A DNA stretch of 64,000 nt. Origin: Syntrophobacterales bacterium (GTDB lineage Bacteria; Desulfobacterota; Syntrophobacteria; Syntrophobacterales; Thermodesulforhabdaceae). Where the stretch lies: assembly GCA_026417655.1 (NCBI GenBank), contig JAOACS010000028.1, positions 1 through 64,000 on the forward strand, read 5' to 3'. Made by a program: the position numbers and the translations under genes. Each line of letters starts with the position of its first letter. Position 1 is the stretch's first letter. Below are positions 1-8,550 of the stretch, piece by piece. Under the pieces are notes generated by a model. It saw only the letters and a list, made by a program, of their open reading frames with translations, ran no database searches and had not been told where the DNA came from.

Positions 1-982
1 TGACGGTGGTGTCCACAATGCTGACCGCACGACTGGGCGCGCCCAAGCTGTCCAGCTCAAGGGTCGGAGCCAGGGTCTTAAGACCTGTGATGGTGAGGTC
101 CTCAGAACTATTGAAGTTGCGGATGGTCGTCACCCCCGTGGTGCCGGTGAAGTCGAAGGTCGTGCCCCCCACCGCATCAGAGGTGATCTGCACGGTCTCG
201 ATGTTCTTGATTTCGAATCCGGATTCGGTTACAGCAGCGTTACCGGAAGAGGCATAGCGCAGCGTGTCATCACCCACGCCCCCATCGAGCACGTCGCCCG
301 AAGAAAGCGTCGCTTCGGTTGCAATGAAGATATCGTTACCCGCCGTGCCCGTAAACGCGTCCGCGCCGGTCGTGAGCGTGAAAGTCTGCCCTGTAGAGGG
401 TGGATTTACTATTACTTGATCCCCCGGATCGGCTATGGATTTTACATCATTTAAAACCCCTGTCTTGGTAGCTGGGTTTACAGCATCAATGAAATTAAGC
501 TTTGAGGCGATATCATTTGCGTCGGTATTTCCAGAATAGGTCGCTGCAAACTTCGTGCCCGAGGAATCATCATTAGGAATCCCATCCCCGTTCGGGTCAA
601 GAAACTCAACAAACCAGTTGGCATACTGAAGCTTGTTATTAAGAGAGGCATAATCTGGCCCTGAAGAGACACTTAAAATCTTAATAAGTAAATCAGCTAC
701 GGAGTTTACACCCACCTTATCCCCACTCGTTGTATTCCTATGAAAGGCAAAGTTAATAATTCTATCAATTGAAGCATCAAGACTTGGTGAGCCAAAACGA
801 CCTTGAGCTTCTGGAGAATTAATAAATCTAGCTATTAGATCCCTTACCGCTTGACTATCAGGTGCTGCATTATCGGGAAGCTGGCTTGCCCAGTAACGGA
901 GTCCTCCTGGATCCGCAGGCCTTCCATAAAAAGCAATATATAACTTCTGGACAAGATCCCTATTCGTCGTCCAATTAGCCAT
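1..982 (-). CDS. RTX/S-layer-like exported protein with N-terminal DUF4214 (partial)
   Basis: The gene starts with ATG at 980-982 behind a strong AAGGAGG site and stays open for 327 codons to the left edge, so its C-terminus is outside the window. Residues about 8-30 carry the DUF4214 signature (LYIAFYGRPADPGG). The second half reads as acidic, Gly/Asp/Thr-rich sequence (TGTAGNDIF, DGGVGDDTL) typical of RTX/S-layer calcium-binding repeats. There is no Sec signal peptide, which fits type I secretion through a C-terminal signal that would lie outside the window. Base composition changes inside the gene near 395: the distal part is about 59% GC over 360 bases by hand count, against about 42% for 421-780. 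Function in surface coating or adhesion is inferred. Confidence 0.85.
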   Translation of the reverse strand, partial: MANWTTNRDLVQKLYIAFYGRPADPGGLRYWASQLPDNAAPDSQAVRDLIARFINSPEAQGRFGSPSLDASIDRIINFAFHRNTTSGDKVGVNSVADLLIKILSVSSGPDYASLNNKLQYANWFVEFLDPNGDGIPNDDSSGTKFAATYSGNTDANDIASKLNFIDAVNPATKTGVLNDVKSIADPGDQVIVNPPSTGQTFTLTTGADAFTGTAGNDIFIATEATLSSGDVLDGGVGDDTLRYASSGNAAVTESGFEIKNIETVQITSDAVGGTTFDFTGTTGVTTIRNFNSSEDLTITGLKTLAPTLELDSLGAPSRAVSIVDTTV

Positions 983-1094
983 TCTAGAACCTCCTTTTGT
1001 TTTTGATCGTTACATAGACCCCTTAAAGCCCCTTAAAACCTATAAACCTAACTGCCTTTTCTAATCACCCCCTAACCTCCAAGTGTTTTCTCCC

Positions 1095-1123
1095 TAATTA
1101 TTCTTTTCCCTTAGATATGTCAA
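1095..1123 (-). promoter_or_regulatory. Sigma-70-type promoter of the RTX/DUF4214 gene
   Basis: On the minus strand a perfect -35 box TTGACA (1118-1123) is followed after 17 bases by TAATTA (1095-1100). It lies about 110 bases upstream of the start codon at 982, in the only gap between this gene and the protease gene. The RTX gene is therefore probably transcribed separately from the operon upstream. Confidence 0.6.
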
Positions 1124-1214
1124 TATTAAACCTTACTACTAGCACTACTAGCCCCCACGTAAAAACCACCAATTTCAATAGCGAATAAGATCACAATTCA
1201 ACCACGAAATCAAG

Positions 1215-1238
1215 AAAAAAACTATTGACAAAATAGTT
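1215..1238 (-). terminator. Rho-independent terminator overlapping the protease stop codon
   Basis: Read on the minus strand, AACTATT (1232-1238), a 5-base loop and AATAGTT (1220-1226) form a 7-bp stem followed by a T run. The stem includes the last codons and the TAG stop of the protease gene. It would end the three-gene operon just before the separately promoted RTX gene. Confidence 0.6.
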
Positions 1239-4200
1239 CAACCCGAGCTTTTGCCACTGTAACACTTGAAGCCTCCTTCGTAACGGCCTGAAGTATCGCC
1301 TGAGCCCTTCGAATGTCTTCAAGGGTCGCATAACGACAGGAGGGGTTTTCCCTTAGCTTCCTAGTAAAATACTCGGCCACCTCTATCCGGTTGTTTATAA
1401 CCGTCAAATCATCCCCTTGAGCCCCGTTCATAACGTCTAACGTTATAGTCTGAAGAGTCATAAGCCTCCGGTTTAACCGATCAAGATAAAAGGCCTTCCC
1501 CTCCGGATCGGGATTCCTCCCAAACATCTGTTGATAGATGGTATCTATGAGCTGAGAATTCGTCATGCCCCCATAGCGGCTTATAAACTCCTGAGAGGTC
1601 CCAAAGGCCTCAATAATAGCCCTCAAATCACCTCCCGCCTCCTGAAGCCTCCTTGCCCAGTAATCCTGGCCTCCAGGATCCGCTGGACGGCCATAATAGG
1701 CTACATAGGCCTTCTGCACCTCCCGAAGATAGCGAGAATCTACCTCTCCACCTTCGCCAGAATCCCAAACATTTAACTCCACCCTATCTACAAAAAGAGA
1801 TGATGGGAAGCTATCGTCAGTTAAGGTGAAAAACTCTACCACCACTTCCCTTCCTGAAAACTCACTAAGATCAAAGAAGGGACTCTGGATCCACCTTCCC
1901 GTGTCCGTTAGCCAACAAAGATCTGAGGCAGCGATTCGCTTAAGAATAGACCTTCCAGTCCTATCGAGTACCCATACACCACCTAGATCGTAGCCACATT
2001 CGTCCTCCGAGTTTATCCATAGGTAAAACCTTAGTGACGCATCCGATCCGGAGGGTATAAAAACCCTCTGCCTAAGAAGCGCTATCTCATCGTCATAGCC
2101 ACCAAGCCAGGCAACATAACTTCCCTCAATCGGCGGTAGTCCCTCGATTTTACTCAGGTGATAGATAATGGGAAAATCATAAAGACTTAGCTCCTCCCAG
2201 TAGCTGGAACCCTCCTCAAAGCCAGGATTCTTCAATACATTGGTTACCCTAGTGGCCGATGACTGGCGAATAGGAACCCTCATACCACCAACCTCTATAC
2301 TCCCCTCCCGGTAGCCAGAGCCCGTAAACTGACCAACCAGAAACCTTATCATTCCACTACCCGTGCCGGAGCCAGAGGTTACGGTAATCCAATCCACCGA
2401 AGAAGTAGCTCGCCAGTTGCAGCCAGACATGGCCCCAACGTATATAATACCTTCTCCACCATAAGCTGGAAAACGTAAGGTCTCGGGTGTGACGTCCACA
2501 ACACAACCCGAGGTCCACATAGCCCGAATGGTGTATGAAATATTTCCTACATCCCAGTTGCTCACACCTATCCACCACACGCCCGGCAAAGGATTAAGAA
2601 AGGAACACTCCTCCTCCGTTTGCTCTTCACCGCCTGAGACACAATCGAAAAGATTAGAAGTTGGTCTTTCATTCCGGAGCATAAACAGATCAACATCGCC
2701 CGTTAAATTTCTCAAGGTGACAGTAAGCCTAGTTGTTCCAGGAGGTATGGTTACGAAGTAGTAATTCCACGCCGACCCTTCAGAATTACCCGATACAGAG
2801 TCGCTTCTCGATACACCATTTTGAAGTTCCACATTTCCACCTGGGGAAACACCAGTTTGCCTAACCAAAAAGCTTTGATCAGCTATAGTTATCGTGGCCG
2901 TCCTCATTGAAGTGCCAGAATAGCTATCTACCCGATAGGTTACCGTCCCACTTCCAGTTCCCGAAATTCCAGAGACAATATTTACCCAGCTAGCCCCACT
3001 CGAGGCTCTCCAGGAACAGCCACTCCCAGTAAGGACACTGATAGTTCCCGTCCCTCCAGAGGCACTGAAGGTGTTCGATAAGGAATTTAACGAATATGTG
3101 CAGGAAGTAGAGGCGCCTTGATTTACCGAAATACGCTCCCCCGCAACAAGAAGAGTCGTTGAACGGGGGGGACCAGTATTTTGGGACGCCCGATAACGGA
3201 CTGTTCCGCTTCCTGAACCGGTTGCTCCAGATACAATTTGAATCCACCCCTCAGGACTCGACGCAGACCAGTTACAACCGCTCTGGGTCGTAACCGTTAT
3301 GGTTCCCTCGCTAGAAGAGGGAGGAAGTGAAAGGCTTGTGGGAGTTACAGAATAGCTACAGGCTGAAGTCCCCGCTTGATTAACTGTAACCGTCTGTCCT
3401 GCCACGGTAAGGCTTCCAGAACGAGCACTCCCGCCGTTTCTCTCAATAGAGATCTGCACTTGACCATTTCCTATGCCGTTTGGGGTTGAGGTTATGCGGA
3501 TCCAACTGGCGTTCGAGCCCGAAGACCAACTGCAGGAACCTGAACTTGTAGAGATAGAAATAGTGGCAGTGCCCCCCTCCGAATCGATACTGAGAGACTG
3601 GGGAGATACGGAGTAGGTACAGGAGCCCCTAAATTCCGCATAATTCGCCTTGTACCCAACCTTGGAAACACCCCATTTTATACGCATATACCCATTTTCA
3701 CCCCAACCGGATCCCCAGGAGTTTCGAAGGATCCAAACCCCTTGGGAATCGTCCCAGCCCACCAAAACAATCGCATGATTCACCGAGCCTTGACAAACTG
3801 AGCTCTCATCGGTCTCAAAGATCCCTCCTCGATAACTCTGAAAGGCCCTCCCTACACAGACGGCCGCAGCAAGGGGACCATAGTTGTAAAGGGCTTGCTT
3901 TATATCATTTACCGATGGCATCGAAGATGCGGCATTCGCATACCCCCAATTACTTATACTGTAAGGATGACTTGGAATAGCAAAACAGGCTCCATTCGTT
4001 GCGGTATAGGGCATGTCCTGCTCAACAACGGCTCCCGCCTGACTCTGTTCCCTGGCGACCTTATCCTTGTGATAATCGTGAGCGAACCACCCCCCGTCAC
4101 AGCTCCAACCGTCCCTATTACAGGAGACAAGAAACTGCTCGGAAAGATCCGTTGCCGCTCCAGACCTCATCTTGATTAAGCCCTCAAGCACCCCAACAGT

Positions 4201-5046
4201 CGCAAAGGCCCAGCAACTGCCACACTCACCCTGATCCTTTACGGCCGTAAGGCGAGGGCGAAGATCGTAGGAGGACGGAAGAGACTGCCCAAGCGGTGGA
4301 GTCGTCCCAGTGGCCTCCTCCTTGACAAAGGAACCCCCTTCATCTCCCAAAGATAAAGAGGGCTTCTCCGTCGAAGGGGAATCGAGCACAAGGGGGATCA
4401 TTTCGGGGATCTCCCCTGAGGACTTCACAGTAACCATCGCTCCATTATTGCCAAACTCCTCCCAGGGGCGATGGTAGCGAAGAACTATCCTTTTAAGACC
4501 AAAAGTGGAGGTTCTGAAGACAAAGCGACTTTCACCTTCCCCTCCTAAACGAGGCTCCTTCTGCACATAGGGAAAAGCTTCGTAATCCTCAAAGGAAGAA
4601 AGCGTTTCGTCAGCTACCGACCAGGAATAACCAGTCGTTATGTTGGCTCTGAGAAGTACATTAACCTCCTTTCGTTTAGGTGCCCTCCCTTCGAAGATAA
4701 GAGTGGTGGGACGGGAAAGGAGAATCCTTACACCATTTGAAGTGGGAGCCATCAGGAAACGTCTTAGCTCCGATATGGTGCCCTCGCCCTTCACAGTTAC
4801 ACGTAGCCGATCACTACTATCCAACGAAGGCTCCCTTTTAACAAAAAGCCTAGCGCCACTTGCCGAGGCTGCCGAAGAAAGTTTCGGCCTCTCTAGCTCT
4901 ATTCGGGATGCTTCGTCGGAAAATTCATAGACCCAGGATATCCTAGTCCTTTGAGAACCGCTAGATAACAAGATATCGCCCGCCAATCCAAAAGAAACAA
5001 AGCCAAGAAGGAAGATAATAACTATCAAGAAAACCCTTGTCTTCAT
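1222..5046 (-). CDS. Secreted papain-family (C1) cysteine protease with chagasin-like, BACON and DUF4214 domains
   Basis: I start at 5046 (1274 aa): AGGAGG sits 9 bases upstream and a signal peptide follows directly; an ATG 30 bases earlier has no such site. Domain order: signal peptide (1-23); chagasin/I42-like inhibitor domain (about 110-210) with NITTGYSW, LGGEGE and a YHRPWE motif; papain domain (about 257-472) with Gln272, Cys278 (GECGSCWAF), His424 (VNHAI) and Asn442 (RNSWGSGWG). Then come three BACON repeats (about 476-735), a pre-peptidase C-terminal-like beta domain, a fourth BACON repeat, a jelly-roll 'NPGFE' domain and a C-terminal DUF4214 (YYGRPADPGG). All catalytic residues are present, so activity is likely. 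The inhibitor domain may keep the enzyme latent, which is inference. It is the last gene of a three-gene operon. Confidence 0.88.
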   Translation of the reverse strand: MKTRVFLIVIIFLLGFVSFGLAGDILLSSGSQRTRISWVYEFSDEASRIELERPKLSSAASASGARLFVKREPSLDSSDRLRVTVKGEGTISELRRFLMAPTSNGVRILLSRPTTLIFEGRAPKRKEVNVLLRANITTGYSWSVADETLSSFEDYEAFPYVQKEPRLGGEGESRFVFRTSTFGLKRIVLRYHRPWEEFGNNGAMVTVKSSGEIPEMIPLVLDSPSTEKPSLSLGDEGGSFVKEEATGTTPPLGQSLPSSYDLRPRLTAVKDQGECGSCWAFATVGVLEGLIKMRSGAATDLSEQFLVSCNRDGWSCDGGWFAHDYHKDKVAREQSQAGAVVEQDMPYTATNGACFAIPSHPYSISNWGYANAASSMPSVNDIKQALYNYGPLAAAVCVGRAFQSYRGGIFETDESSVCQGSVNHAIVLVGWDDSQGVWILRNSWGSGWGENGYMRIKWGVSKVGYKANYAEFRGSCTYSVSPQSLSIDSEGGTATISISTSSGSCSWSSGSNASWIRITSTPNGIGNGQVQISIERNGGSARSGSLTVAGQTVTVNQAGTSACSYSVTPTSLSLPPSSSEGTITVTTQSGCNWSASSPEGWIQIVSGATGSGSGTVRYRASQNTGPPRSTTLLVAGERISVNQGASTSCTYSLNSLSNTFSASGGTGTISVLTGSGCSWRASSGASWVNIVSGISGTGSGTVTYRVDSYSGTSMRTATITIADQSFLVRQTGVSPGGNVELQNGVSRSDSVSGNSEGSAWNYYFVTIPPGTTRLTVTLRNLTGDVDLFMLRNERPTSNLFDCVSGGEEQTEEECSFLNPLPGVWWIGVSNWDVGNISYTIRAMWTSGCVVDVTPETLRFPAYGGEGIIYVGAMSGCNWRATSSVDWITVTSGSGTGSGMIRFLVGQFTGSGYREGSIEVGGMRVPIRQSSATRVTNVLKNPGFEEGSSYWEELSLYDFPIIYHLSKIEGLPPIEGSYVAWLGGYDDEIALLRQRVFIPSGSDASLRFYLWINSEDECGYDLGGVWVLDRTGRSILKRIAASDLCWLTDTGRWIQSPFFDLSEFSGREVVVEFFTLTDDSFPSSLFVDRVELNVWDSGEGGEVDSRYLREVQKAYVAYYGRPADPGGQDYWARRLQEAGGDLRAIIEAFGTSQEFISRYGGMTNSQLIDTIYQQMFGRNPDPEGKAFYLDRLNRRLMTLQTITLDVMNGAQGDDLTVINNRIEVAEYFTRKLRENPSCRYATLEDIRRAQAILQAVTKEASSVTVAKARVELFCQ

Positions 5047-5103
5047 AAAGTCCATCCTCCTTTCTTTGGCCTCCATATCTACACTATACGCCTTTTTTCC
5101 ATC

Positions 5104-6354
5104 TTAATCCTTCATGCATACTACCGATCTATCAAAGCTAGCCCCTACAGCCTGCTCCATCCCAACGGTTATGCATCCTCTGAATAGGTTTACCCTGTCA
5201 CAGACCTGACCATAGGGACAACAACAACAGGTTTGAGCACACTGCGAGGCCGTCTCACCAGGACATCCCCTAGTCAATACGCAGCAGCTCTGAGCCGATT
5301 GACAATTTCTTTCATCACTTCCGTCTCCACACTCGTCCTTTCCGTTACATACCCTAAATCGGCAAATCTTCTTGCCGTTACCACAGACATAAACTCCCGA
5401 TTCGTCACAGTCACAGGTCCATTCGTCACTTCCATCCCTACAATCCTGCCTTCTATCGCAGACATTGGAGGCACATATCTCCTGGCCATTTTCACAAGAG
5501 ACAACACCTCCCTGGTTGGCACACTTTGCTTCCATGTGGCAAGCATTGTCATACCAATACCCTCCGGCGGATTCACAATCGACCCTAGTCCTACAAAGAA
5601 CTACATTAATGTAACATTCCCTTGAGGAGGTATTACACTGGTTGTCATACCAGAATCCACCGACTCTAGTGCATTCAGCCTCGGTCTTACATAGCCTTAC
5701 ATTGCTCGAGCTACACTGAGGACTAGCGTTACATTTACTATTATACCAATAGCCCCCATTTTGTCCACATTCTGTTGCATTCGTGCAGCCTGCCAAGTTG
5801 CTTCTCCTACAGGCCGGAACCGGATTGGTGCTACAGGTGTTATTTGGCTGCCATGTTCCTCCGGCACTACTACAGGAACTCCTGCTACTGCAGGCCTGAA
5901 GACTGGTCCTAGAACAGGAAGGGCTTTGTCTTACATCTGAAGGCAAGGGGTTTGAAGAGGTAGGGGGATTAGAGGTTGACTCACTCAAGACCCGATCAAT
6001 AGTAACATCCCTAGTATTCTGAACCCCCAAGACCCAAGCCTTATTTACTGGGTCCACGTCCGCTCCTCCTCCGGGTCCAATGGAAGTGGCTACACTATTT
6101 ACCATTCCGCCCGTTGTGCCCAAGACTTGAGAAAAGGTCGATAAATTCTGTCTATGCCGCTCAGCAGGCTCAATAGGGGCATTGGCAGGGTTTTCTATTA
6201 AATCTTCTACAGCCCTTCCACTGGTCTCCCTTATCCTTTGAGCCGTTGTGCCAGCAAGGTATAACCATCCCAAGGTTACACCTACCACTACAGCTACAGC
6301 CAGGGGCACAAGTCCTTGATTACTCTTCAAAATATTTTTGAAAAAGCTTAGCAT
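5104..6354 (-). CDS. Membrane-anchored cysteine-rich protein with two LDL-receptor class A repeats
   Basis: This 416-residue protein has one N-terminal membrane segment (about 15-36) without an obvious cleavage site, then a Ser/Pro/Asn-rich stretch to about 145. Four cysteine repeats follow (about 147-174, 182-208, 214-240, 247-272), each C-x6/7-C-x5-C-x3-GG-x-W-x4/5-C, mostly with GGYWY. Two LDL-receptor class A repeats come next (about 278-314 and 316-351), ending CRDGSDEWTC and CGDGSDERNC with the acidic calcium ligands intact. A Cys-rich tail (CCCCPYGQVC) closes the protein. LDLa repeats bind protein ligands in animals and are uncommon in bacteria. A surface adhesin or ligand-binding role is inferred. 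It lies 19 bases after the DUF4214 gene and 57 bases before the protease gene, in one operon. Confidence 0.8.
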   Translation of the reverse strand: MLSFFKNILKSNQGLVPLAVAVVVGVTLGWLYLAGTTAQRIRETSGRAVEDLIENPANAPIEPAERHRQNLSTFSQVLGTTGGMVNSVATSIGPGGGADVDPVNKAWVLGVQNTRDVTIDRVLSESTSNPPTSSNPLPSDVRQSPSCSRTSLQACSSRSSCSSAGGTWQPNNTCSTNPVPACRRSNLAGCTNATECGQNGGYWYNSKCNASPQCSSSNVRLCKTEAECTRVGGFWYDNQCNTSSRECYINVVLCRTRVDCESAGGYWYDNACHMEAKCANQGGVVSCENGQEICASNVCDRRQDCRDGSDEWTCDCDESGVYVCGNGKKICRFRVCNGKDECGDGSDERNCQSAQSCCVLTRGCPGETASQCAQTCCCCPYGQVCDRVNLFRGCITVGMEQAVGASFDRSVVCMKD

Positions 6355-6373
6355 ATTATTCTCCCTTCGTTGG

Positions 6374-7489
6374 TCACTCTATTTTACAAAGATCCGAACC
6401 AGCCCTAGGAGAAACAAGGGCATAACCGGCCTCTACCTGAAACACCAAATCGTTTTCCAAATAGACTGAGCTGGCCGCTAGGGTAGTGGTTGGATTATAT
6501 CTCATGGCCGTTATGAGTCTTCCGCCAAATTGAATCTGTTGGGTGCAGGTCGGCTCTCCTAACATCCTTATCACGTCCTCTTTGGTTGTGCAGGGGGTAA
6601 AGAGAGAGGGGCTTAAATGAGTAGGGACAAGATTATGAGCATAGGGTCCTACCGTCTTTTCCTCAATAAAGTAACCGTTATCGAATAAAATAGCCTTCAA
6701 GCCACTTGATGAATTATTATAAATCCATGTTTCAACCTTTCTTACCCTACCAGAATACACAGGCCTTCCCAAGGAGTCGGCCTCTTCAGTTGTAAAAACA
6801 ATGGTGAATAAGGAGGGGTTCCCTCTAGAGGCTATAAAGGCCTGTTGATCTCTACTTAGGGCAACCAGCGATTCGGTAACATTCAAGGGACACCTCAGAA
6901 CCCGACAGTAGCGATAGTCGGTAAGAATTTTTCCCGCATTGATGGAACCCTTGGTTGCATTCACAAAGGATATGACCTTCTTTGCCTCTTCTGCCGCCTG
7001 GTTCCCTGAGTAGGTGCAGGAGGGGTTGTTCCTGATCTGTTGAGTAAAATACTTCGCCACCTCAACCTTATTCTCAATGGTGGTCTTGTCCTCGTTCTCA
7101 GCTCCATAGAGGATATTAAGGGCGATTGTCTGAAGGGTCATCTCACCCCTTTGGAGCTTATTAACGTAGAACTGCTTTCCCGCCTCCTCGGCATTCCGAT
7201 TAAAGAGATTAAGATAGATGTTATTTACTAACTCCGGATAACTAAGTCGCCCAAAACGATCCCTAAACTCCTGGGAATTTCCAAACTCCTGCATAATCGA
7301 TGAGAGGGAACCCTCGTTGGCTAGCCTCCTCGACCAGTAATCTAGCCCTCCAGGATCGGCAGGTCTTCCGTAGTATGCAATATAGGCCCTCTGAACCTCC
7401 GAAACACTATCCACCGCTAGGGCTATATTGGTGTTAAAGATTAATAGGACCAAAAAAAAACACCACACCAACCTTCCATTTTCTTTCAT
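6374..7489 (-). CDS. Secreted DUF4214-domain protein of unknown function
   Basis: This 371-residue protein has a signal peptide (residues 1-25, ending NIALA) and a GGAGG site upstream. Residues about 30-165 form a DUF4214 module with AYIAYYGRPADPGG, very like the C-terminal module of the protease encoded two genes downstream. Both copies continue into a matching NPSC..Y segment with another Cys about 40 residues later. The C-terminal half (about 190-371) starts at CPLNVTES and I do not recognise it; it contains several cysteines and looks beta-rich. It is the first gene of the operon and follows a strong promoter. A role in surface attachment or assembly is suggested only by context. Confidence 0.75.
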   Translation of the reverse strand: MKENGRLVWCFFLVLLIFNTNIALAVDSVSEVQRAYIAYYGRPADPGGLDYWSRRLANEGSLSSIMQEFGNSQEFRDRFGRLSYPELVNNIYLNLFNRNAEEAGKQFYVNKLQRGEMTLQTIALNILYGAENEDKTTIENKVEVAKYFTQQIRNNPSCTYSGNQAAEEAKKVISFVNATKGSINAGKILTDYRYCRVLRCPLNVTESLVALSRDQQAFIASRGNPSLFTIVFTTEEADSLGRPVYSGRVRKVETWIYNNSSSGLKAILFDNGYFIEEKTVGPYAHNLVPTHLSPSLFTPCTTKEDVIRMLGEPTCTQQIQFGGRLITAMRYNPTTTLAASSVYLENDLVFQVEAGYALVSPRAGSDLCKIE

Positions 7490-7625
7490 ACTGAGTCCTC
7501 CATGTTTTCCAAAAAAGTATCTCCCTATTTATTAGCTGGGACTAAATCGCTACTTTATTTTAGGTAGCGCGTCATAAAACTCTAGTTAGCGAAAGCGGGG
7601 AGAGGGGAATATATTTAAGGGGAGC

Positions 7626-7666
7626 TAAGACGTCTTAATTTTAACCTACGATATTATAGTCGTCAA
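7626..7666 (-). promoter_or_regulatory. Sigma-70-type promoter with 12-bp palindrome at the start site
   Basis: On the minus strand TTGACG (7661-7666) and TAAAAT (7638-7643) are separated by 17 bases, a good sigma-70 promoter for the DUF4214/LDLa/protease operon. Directly after the -10 box lies a perfect 12-bp palindrome, TAAGACGTCTTA (7626-7637), where a bound protein would block initiation. A further inverted repeat, CGCTAC...GTAGCG (7548-7569), lies in the long 5' leader. The rest of 7490-7776 shows no gene. Confidence 0.6.
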
Positions 7667-7699
7667 AAATATTTTCTACCCATACCCCCCCAGATGGAC

Positions 7700-7728
7700 T
7701 TGATTATTCTCGGCTTGTATGGTTTAAA
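7700..7728 (+). promoter_or_regulatory. Candidate promoter of the dsbC-like gene
   Basis: TTGATT (7700-7705) and TTTAAA (7723-7728) are spaced by 17 bases and lie about 50 bases upstream of the ATG at 7777. The match is moderate and the assignment rests mainly on position. Confidence 0.35.
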
Positions 7729-7776
7729 GCCTTGGTGGTTTGTAAAACATCTAAAACAGTTGAAGGGAGAGAGGTA

Positions 7777-8550
7777 ATGAAAGTCAAAGGACGAAAAGTT
7801 TTTTTCTGTACAGGCCTTACCTTAGGTATTTTCCTTATGGGATCTCTTATGGCTCTAGCCTGCCCTACCGTCCAACAGGTACAAGAAGGCATAAAAAAGG
7901 TATTTAACCAGAGTTTTGAAGTAAAAAAGGTTCAACCCTCCAAGGAGCTTCCAGGGATCTGTGAAGCCCACGTGCTGGTCCAGGAGCGTTATAATATCTT
8001 ATACGTAGACGAAAAGGGTAAATACTTCTTTGCCGGAAACCTAATTGAGATCGCAACAGGGAAAAATCTTACCCAGGAGGCATCCCAGGAACTCAATAAA
8101 CTCACCGTAGATGACGTAAAAAAGCTCACCTCCCTCGTGGCCTTCACGGTCGGGAAGAAGGGGCCTGAGGTCTATTTTATAACGGATCCCCAGTGTCCCT
8201 ATTGTAAAAAGGCCCTCCCAACCTTGAAAAAACTCACCGATGAGGGCAAACTAAAAGTTCACGTTGTCCTCTTTCCCCTTTCTATACACCCCGGGGCGAA
8301 GGAGCAATCTATCTCGATCATTTGCGACAAAAAGGAGCTCCCTGGCCTAGAGAGCGGCTATAAGTCCGAAAACCAATGTGAAGAGGGAAAGAAAAAGGTC
8401 GAAGGAGCAGAGAGCTTTCTGCAGACGAAGGGTATTCGGGGCACCCCATCCTATATCTTTCCCAATGGGAAAGTTAACGTGGGGATGATAGATTCGGAAG
8501 AAAATCTTTTAAAGATGGCCGAAGAAAATCAGCTCGCCAAGGCAAAATAA
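7777..8550 (+). CDS. DsbC/DsbG-like periplasmic thiol:disulfide protein
   Basis: I start at 7777, not at an ATG 45 bases upstream, because GGGAGAGAGG precedes it and a signal peptide (KVFFCTG...LMALA) follows at once. The 257-residue protein has a DsbC-type N-terminal domain (about 30-110) and a thioredoxin fold with CPYC active site (DPQCPYCKK) and a cis-Pro loop (GIRGTPSY). Such proteins isomerise or reduce disulfides in the periplasm. That role fits a genome encoding Cys-rich exported proteins just across the divergent promoter region, though a functional link is inferred. It lies 23 bases upstream of rubrerythrin. DsbC and DsbG cannot be told apart here. Confidence 0.85.
   Translation: MKVKGRKVFFCTGLTLGIFLMGSLMALACPTVQQVQEGIKKVFNQSFEVKKVQPSKELPGICEAHVLVQERYNILYVDEKGKYFFAGNLIEIATGKNLTQEASQELNKLTVDDVKKLTSLVAFTVGKKGPEVYFITDPQCPYCKKALPTLKKLTDEGKLKVHVVLFPLSIHPGAKEQSISIICDKKELPGLESGYKSENQCEEGKKKVEGAESFLQTKGIRGTPSYIFPNGKVNVGMIDSEENLLKMAEENQLAKAK

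Follow-up and report, generated by a model that had tools for sequence, protein, structure and literature searches.

A cysteine-rich bacterial protein with two LDLa repeats of shifted cysteine spacing, a CCCC tail and DUF4214-encoding neighbours

A 416-amino acid protein of a Syntrophobacterales bacterium has two LDL-receptor class A (LDLa) repeats, in both of which the third cysteine comes late, followed by a ten-cysteine tail with a CCCC run, and this LDLa-CCCC combination recurs, again in association with DUF4214, in a distant bacterium, an uncultured Thiocystis represented by a metagenome-assembled genome (MAG). Of the other bacterial proteins retrieved, one alone has the unusual LDLa cysteine spacing, the Thiocystis one (L036 in what follows). 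Quite possibly the protein is an envelope-tethered, disulfide-rich and calcium-dependent means of capturing a ligand or substrate, and belongs to an accessory cluster of DUF4214 surface proteins. The window, meaning the whole stretch of 64,000 nucleotides that was analysed, has the following relevant features:

2..982, minus strand: DUF4214 protein truncated at the end of the contig, with RTX/S-layer-like repeats (profile; RTX-like GTAGNDIF read from the sequence)
1222..5076, minus strand: downstream gene, up to 1284 aa, with chagasin-like I42, papain C1, BACON, PPC and DUF4214 domains (Pfam)
5104..6354, minus strand: the 416-aa protein, comprising a transmembrane or signal segment, linker, four GGxW repeats, two LDLa repeats and CCCC tail (sequence)
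5143..5286, minus strand: ten-cysteine tail, CCVxTxGCPGETAxxCxxTCCCCPxGQVCDxxNxxxGCI, conserved in L036 (sequence alignment, profile)
5302..5409, minus strand: LDLa repeat 2, residues 316-351, with two of the ligand positions occupied by N and E and the third cysteine shifted (PF00057, 27.8 bits)
5413..5523, minus strand: LDLa repeat 1, residues 278-314, complete D/D/D/E ligand set, third cysteine shifted (profile, shuffles, model)
5539..5616, minus strand: four-cysteine GGxWY repeat 4, residues 247-272 (29.6 bits, profile from other genomes)
5635..5715, minus strand: four-cysteine GGxWY repeat 3, residues 214-240 (44.4 bits, same profile)
5731..5811, minus strand: four-cysteine GGxWY repeat 2, residues 182-208 (23.2 bits, same profile)
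5833..5916, minus strand: four-cysteine GGxW repeat 1, residues 147-174, variant GGTWQ (16.1 bits, same profile)
5917..6252, minus strand: cysteine-free linker, residues 35-146 (sequence)
6253..6312, minus strand: one hydrophobic segment, residues 15-34, preceded by an N-terminus that contains Lys (hydropathy)
6374..7489, minus strand: upstream gene for a DUF4214 protein of 371 aa, 19 bp from the LDLa gene (PF13946, E 3e-17)

The open reading frame at 5104-6354(-) was confirmed; it starts with ATG, and a purine-rich AAGGGAG can be read upstream. Every one of its 39 cysteines lies between residues 147 and 413, with 16 in the GGxW repeats, 12 in the LDLa repeats, 10 in the tail and one more, the last being residue 413; as the total is odd, one cysteine must remain unpaired or bind elsewhere. 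The membrane anchor of the original prediction survives as one hydrophobic stretch of 20 residues (15-34), at which no lipobox is present and which could be either a signal anchor or a cleaved signal peptide. A type IV pilin-like (class III signal) N-terminus was considered and rejected: G14 is followed by LVPLA with no E5, and the N-terminus gave no Pfam pilin match. The Pfam scan of the full protein returned LDLa and a sub-cut-off match to DUF2613, and neither EGF nor YWTD propeller domains, so that the architecture of the LDLR/LRP family (LDLa arrays with EGF and a YWTD propeller) is not that of this bacterial protein. PF13946 (DUF4214) is absent from the LDLa frame itself, being carried by its neighbours only, and NCBIfam and PHROGs searches gave nothing significant.

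That the two repeats are LDLa, as had been proposed from the sequence, is borne out by several approaches. PF00057 matches two stretches, the whole protein scoring E 6.7e-5 and 23.5 bits, just below the cut-off of 24.1; in a genome-level search one stretch reached 27.8 bits, above that cut-off, and was the sole PF00057 match in the source genome. With a prokaryotic profile built from 36 other prokaryotic units, those of the window being left out, residues 282-316 scored 21.9 bits and residues 316-351 scored 16.8, while the best single-domain score among 5000 composition shuffles of the cysteine-rich region was 12.6. A search of PDB chains likewise gave significant matches, the best being to animal LRP2 and VLDLR units, a ranking that is biased because LDLa in the PDB is mostly animal. 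The AlphaFold model of the LDLa-tail region (mean pLDDT 63.7) has LDLa blocks mostly at 74-81 and a tail mostly below 60; its structural matches are LDLa modules, the best at about Z 5, and against LDLR module 5 (1ajj) it aligns at Z 4.9 with an rmsd of 2.3 A over 37 residues. The LDLa fold is thus supported by the model, which barely informs the fold of the tail.

Both repeats were originally credited with full sets of calcium ligands. This holds for LDLa1, which has D after C4, D before C5, and the D and E of SDE, but not for LDLa2, where N after C4 and E before C5 replace two Asp residues; D precedes C5 in 33 of 37 other prokaryotic LDLa units, and E does so in none of the 37. Like LDLR module 5, LRP2 and VLDLR units, with which there are significant profile and model matches, each repeat has six cysteines, and LDLa1 has the D-x3-DCxDGSDE calcium core; the differences lie in the ligand positions of LDLa2 and in a third cysteine that comes two residues later. 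The spacing is C2-x6-C3-x4-C4 in both repeats, instead of the canonical x3-5 and x6. Does the shift alter the fold? It could mean a disulfide topology other than the canonical one (C1-C3, C2-C5, C4-C6), yet moving a residue by two positions along a strand would leave its side chain facing the same way, and the usual C1-C3 bond may still form.

LDLa repeats had been described as mainly animal. That needs qualifying: a single alignment scan, seeded with window-like motifs (the two window units, the same in swapped order and an artificial blend) and so not a measure of frequency, found 43 prokaryotic loci, of which 24 are archaeal (MGII/Poseidoniales or Euryarchaeota), 7 from Myxococcota, 4 from Deltaproteobacteria, 6 from Gammaproteobacteria, 1 from Bacteroidales and 1 from an unnamed bacterium, taxonomy being by record title. 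Within the phylum PF00057 exceeds its cut-off in one of 395 genomes. LDLa repeats in prokaryotes are rare, not unknown. The proteins of MGII archaea, Myxococcota, Endozoicomonas and others resemble the window protein in having LDLa-type DGSDE units, often in tandem; they differ in that 36 of 37 regex-defined units have the canonical C2-C3-C4 spacing, the single exception being L036, and apart from L036 none of the proteins of the 43 loci has the CCCC tail. One candidate from the PF00057 search of the phylum, L003, was below the cut-off and was taken as chance, its frame of 73 aa matching 19 positions of the profile. Many LDLa-like units are present per MGII protein, and those of several loci (L022, L023, L024, L025, L030 and other archaeal loci) have the pattern F-x-C-x-DGS-x-x-I-x4-VNDG-x-x-DC-x-DGSDE, without C3 and C4. 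In a PDB search two MGII units also matched the glucosidase II beta subunit (E about 1e-4), a protein that has similar units.

The literature search on prokaryotic LDLa brought up one paper, on coral Endozoicomonas, in which LDLR-like genes had already been reported and were interpreted as close to host genes (PMC9743535). Acquisition from an animal of a host-interaction module, one that would imitate receptors or ligands of the host or bind to them, as has been suggested for Endozoicomonas, would fit that precedent and the best PDB matches, those to animal LRP2 and VLDLR units. For the window protein we consider it very improbable. The PDB ranking has the bias mentioned; the nearest units found are those of the Thiocystis MAG, which share the odd register of the cysteines and are followed by a tail that turned up nowhere else; the flanking genes are bacterial and the G+C content of the gene is 0.48 as against 0.46 for the window; and there is no evidence of an animal host or of a recent transfer from an animal. 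Animal transfer is accordingly not favoured, the eukaryotic side of the comparison consisting of PDB chains.

The tail, overlooked in the original prediction, has its ten cysteines in residues 357-394 and reads CCVLTRGCPGETASQCAQTCCCCPYGQVC...GC. Its counterpart in L036, a 965-aa frame (L036, about 3420 to 6314) from NZ_CAIPNF010000111.1, follows an LDLa unit with an equally shifted third cysteine that reaches the PF00057 cut-off; identity with the window protein is 55% over 91 aa and takes in GCPGETA, TCCCCP and GQVCD. Both window repeats score highest against the L036 unit. The Thiocystis protein differs in having one LDLa unit instead of two, in that no GGxW repeats were found in it, and in combining DUF4214 (Pfam E 3.7e-16), a phospholipase A2-like CITHDACYD stretch and a PKD-like region in one polypeptide. 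The CITHDACYD stretch, between DUF4214 and LDLa, resembles phospholipase A2 active sites by eye, with no Pfam match to that family. These two proteins are the only ones found here to have the LDLa-CCCC unit. A profile of it matched the source genome alone among 395 genomes of the phylum; 210 genomes of the Thiocystis order and 369 of the class gave the Thiocystis genome and weak matches only, and viral contigs gave none. Two of the weak matches were rejected, L067 as a chance frame outside any LDLa context and L092 for an internal stop. Plasmids and phages had no match to LDLa or to the tail, and relatives of the whole protein were found in none of 58 other genomes of the phylum, nor was any confirmed in genome or viral collections.

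The LDLa gene stands on the same strand as the upstream DUF4214 gene, 19 bp away, and the two probably form an operon; no terminator-like site was detected on that strand within 800-8000. The true start of the downstream gene is likely near 5046. As a side observation, PPC, DUF4214 and several BACON domains share its single frame at 1222-5076(-) with a papain C1 protease and a chagasin-like I42 inhibitor domain. DUF4214 has been described as a likely surface-anchoring domain (PMC12780176). In the source genome it has eight matches, on three contigs (C11, C15 and C25), in six open frames, three of which are in this cluster. There is no DUF4214 match in the same-genus genome G001 and no homologue of the LDLa protein in the four nearest relatives (G001-G004), and the cluster around the LDLa gene therefore looks accessory. 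The same relatives bear on the proposal that the protein needs the DsbC-like factor encoded nearby. This is weakened, since dsbC is present in all four, at 58-82% identity, with none giving a homologue of the LDLa protein; the other window genes tested had no match around dsbC in the fetched stretches of these genomes. The gene is not specific to this cluster, and DsbC seems to be a periplasmic factor of general use, not a dedicated partner.

The neighbouring protease gene, adjacent and on the same strand, brings to mind a regulator of the papain-type enzyme, whether inhibitor, chaperone or maturation factor. We regard this as improbable, given that the protease gene already has a chagasin-type I42 domain and that L036, which has the LDLa-CCCC unit, shows no papain domain. 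Capture of a ligand or substrate, the reading preferred here, would work as follows. The N-terminal hydrophobic segment would lie in or across the inner membrane, and the cysteine-rich C-terminal half would be a string of small modules locked by disulfides and situated outside the cytoplasm. Of these modules, the four GGxW units may be spacers or binding modules and the two LDLa units with the CCCC tail would be the probable binding head. One calcium ion would be folded into LDLa1 and perhaps, more weakly, another into LDLa2. In animal LDLa units the acidic calcium site holds Lys or Arg side chains of the partner, and the acidic site here could grip those of a protein partner in the same way. 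The gene is probably co-transcribed with the DUF4214 gene and with that for the DUF4214/papain-type protease, and for this reason the likeliest partner would be one of the cluster's DUF4214 surface proteins or else a substrate protein that is handed to the protease. The calcium-dependent adhesin or receptor originally proposed is plausible because LDLa1 keeps all its ligand side chains and because of the DUF4214 setting. In this picture the frame, its modules, the cysteine pattern, the LDLa-CCCC unit shared with L036 and the order of the genes are observed, whereas export, disulfides, calcium binding, the partner and the role are inferred. A surface role in a diderm cell requires an outer-membrane route, and as none was identified the protein may act in the periplasm.

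A bolder version, which we put forward as rather unlikely, is that the LDLa repeats with shifted C3 are a subtype specific to prokaryotes. Together with a new CCCC domain to which it is fused, this subtype would be the head by which DUF4214 surface enzymes dock in the presence of calcium, as part of the same chain in Thiocystis and as a separate subunit beside a papain-type protease in the source genome. If true, a receptor-type ligand-binding module best known from animals would be at work in bacteria in the docking of surface enzymes, and would have a cysteine register and a companion domain of its own. It would offer a lead to the function of DUF4214 clusters, and would be a concrete case for the question of whether prokaryotic LDLa is old and independent or was exchanged with eukaryotes.

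Could the cysteines instead be free, those of CCCC especially, and bind a metal or cluster in a metal-binding or redox protein? The CCCC run and the count of 39 invite the thought. It seems distinctly improbable, as a hydrophobic segment at the N-terminus implies that the protein is exported into an oxidising compartment, 28 of the 39 cysteines are in two repeat types of fixed cysteine spacing, and LDLa is a known disulfide module.

The GGxW repeats, predicted as four C-x6/7-C-x5-C-x3-GGxWY units, are indeed four, but GGxWY is present in three of them only, copy 1 having GGTWQ. Copies 1-3 have C-x7-C-x5-C-x3-GG-x-W and copy 4 has C-x6-C-x5-C-x3-GG-x-W, with a fourth cysteine 11-12 residues past the third in each; the best score of the GGxWY profile among 5000 composition shuffles was 13.5 bits. 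A profile search found the repeat in other bacteria, at E <= 0.001 in 9 of 395 genomes of the phylum, and none was found in plasmids. The AlphaFold model of the four repeats has a mean pLDDT of 89.3, each unit consisting of short helices and then a hairpin, and Foldseek found nothing like it in the PDB with E up to 10; BFVD had no match with E up to 0.001, nor did VIA-align 2 or profile searches give a PDB match. The absence of a structural match is no proof of a new fold. It leaves an unnamed four-cysteine repeat that is confidently modelled and to which these searches brought up no counterpart in the PDB.

These repeats bring up a purely structural role, a protease-resistant envelope spacer or stalk that has no specific ligand and in which LDLa units are stable blocks locked by calcium. 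In other long secreted proteins GGxW occurs singly or serially beside PKD, Cohesin and Ig-like domains, and the confident model of the four units (mean pLDDT 89) would suit a stalk. Even so we think such a role unlikely, as conservation of LDLa-CCCC between distant bacteria, at 55% over 91 aa and extending to the non-cysteine residues of GCPGET and GQVCD, exceeds what a passive spacer would need.

The proteins of L008, L009, L010 and L016 have the same unnamed repeat, with the motif C-x7-C-x5-C-x3-GGxWY-x3-C, and differ from the window protein in having PKD, Cohesin or CARDB domains and no LDLa beside it. That at 439-3099(-) of L008 has one GGxWY unit with PKD and Cohesin domains, and terminal dockerin-like repeats can be read by eye. 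A similar unnamed domain, GYxLxDGTxxxNAYE, stands at the end of the GGxW proteins of L012, L014 and L020, which come from different genomes.
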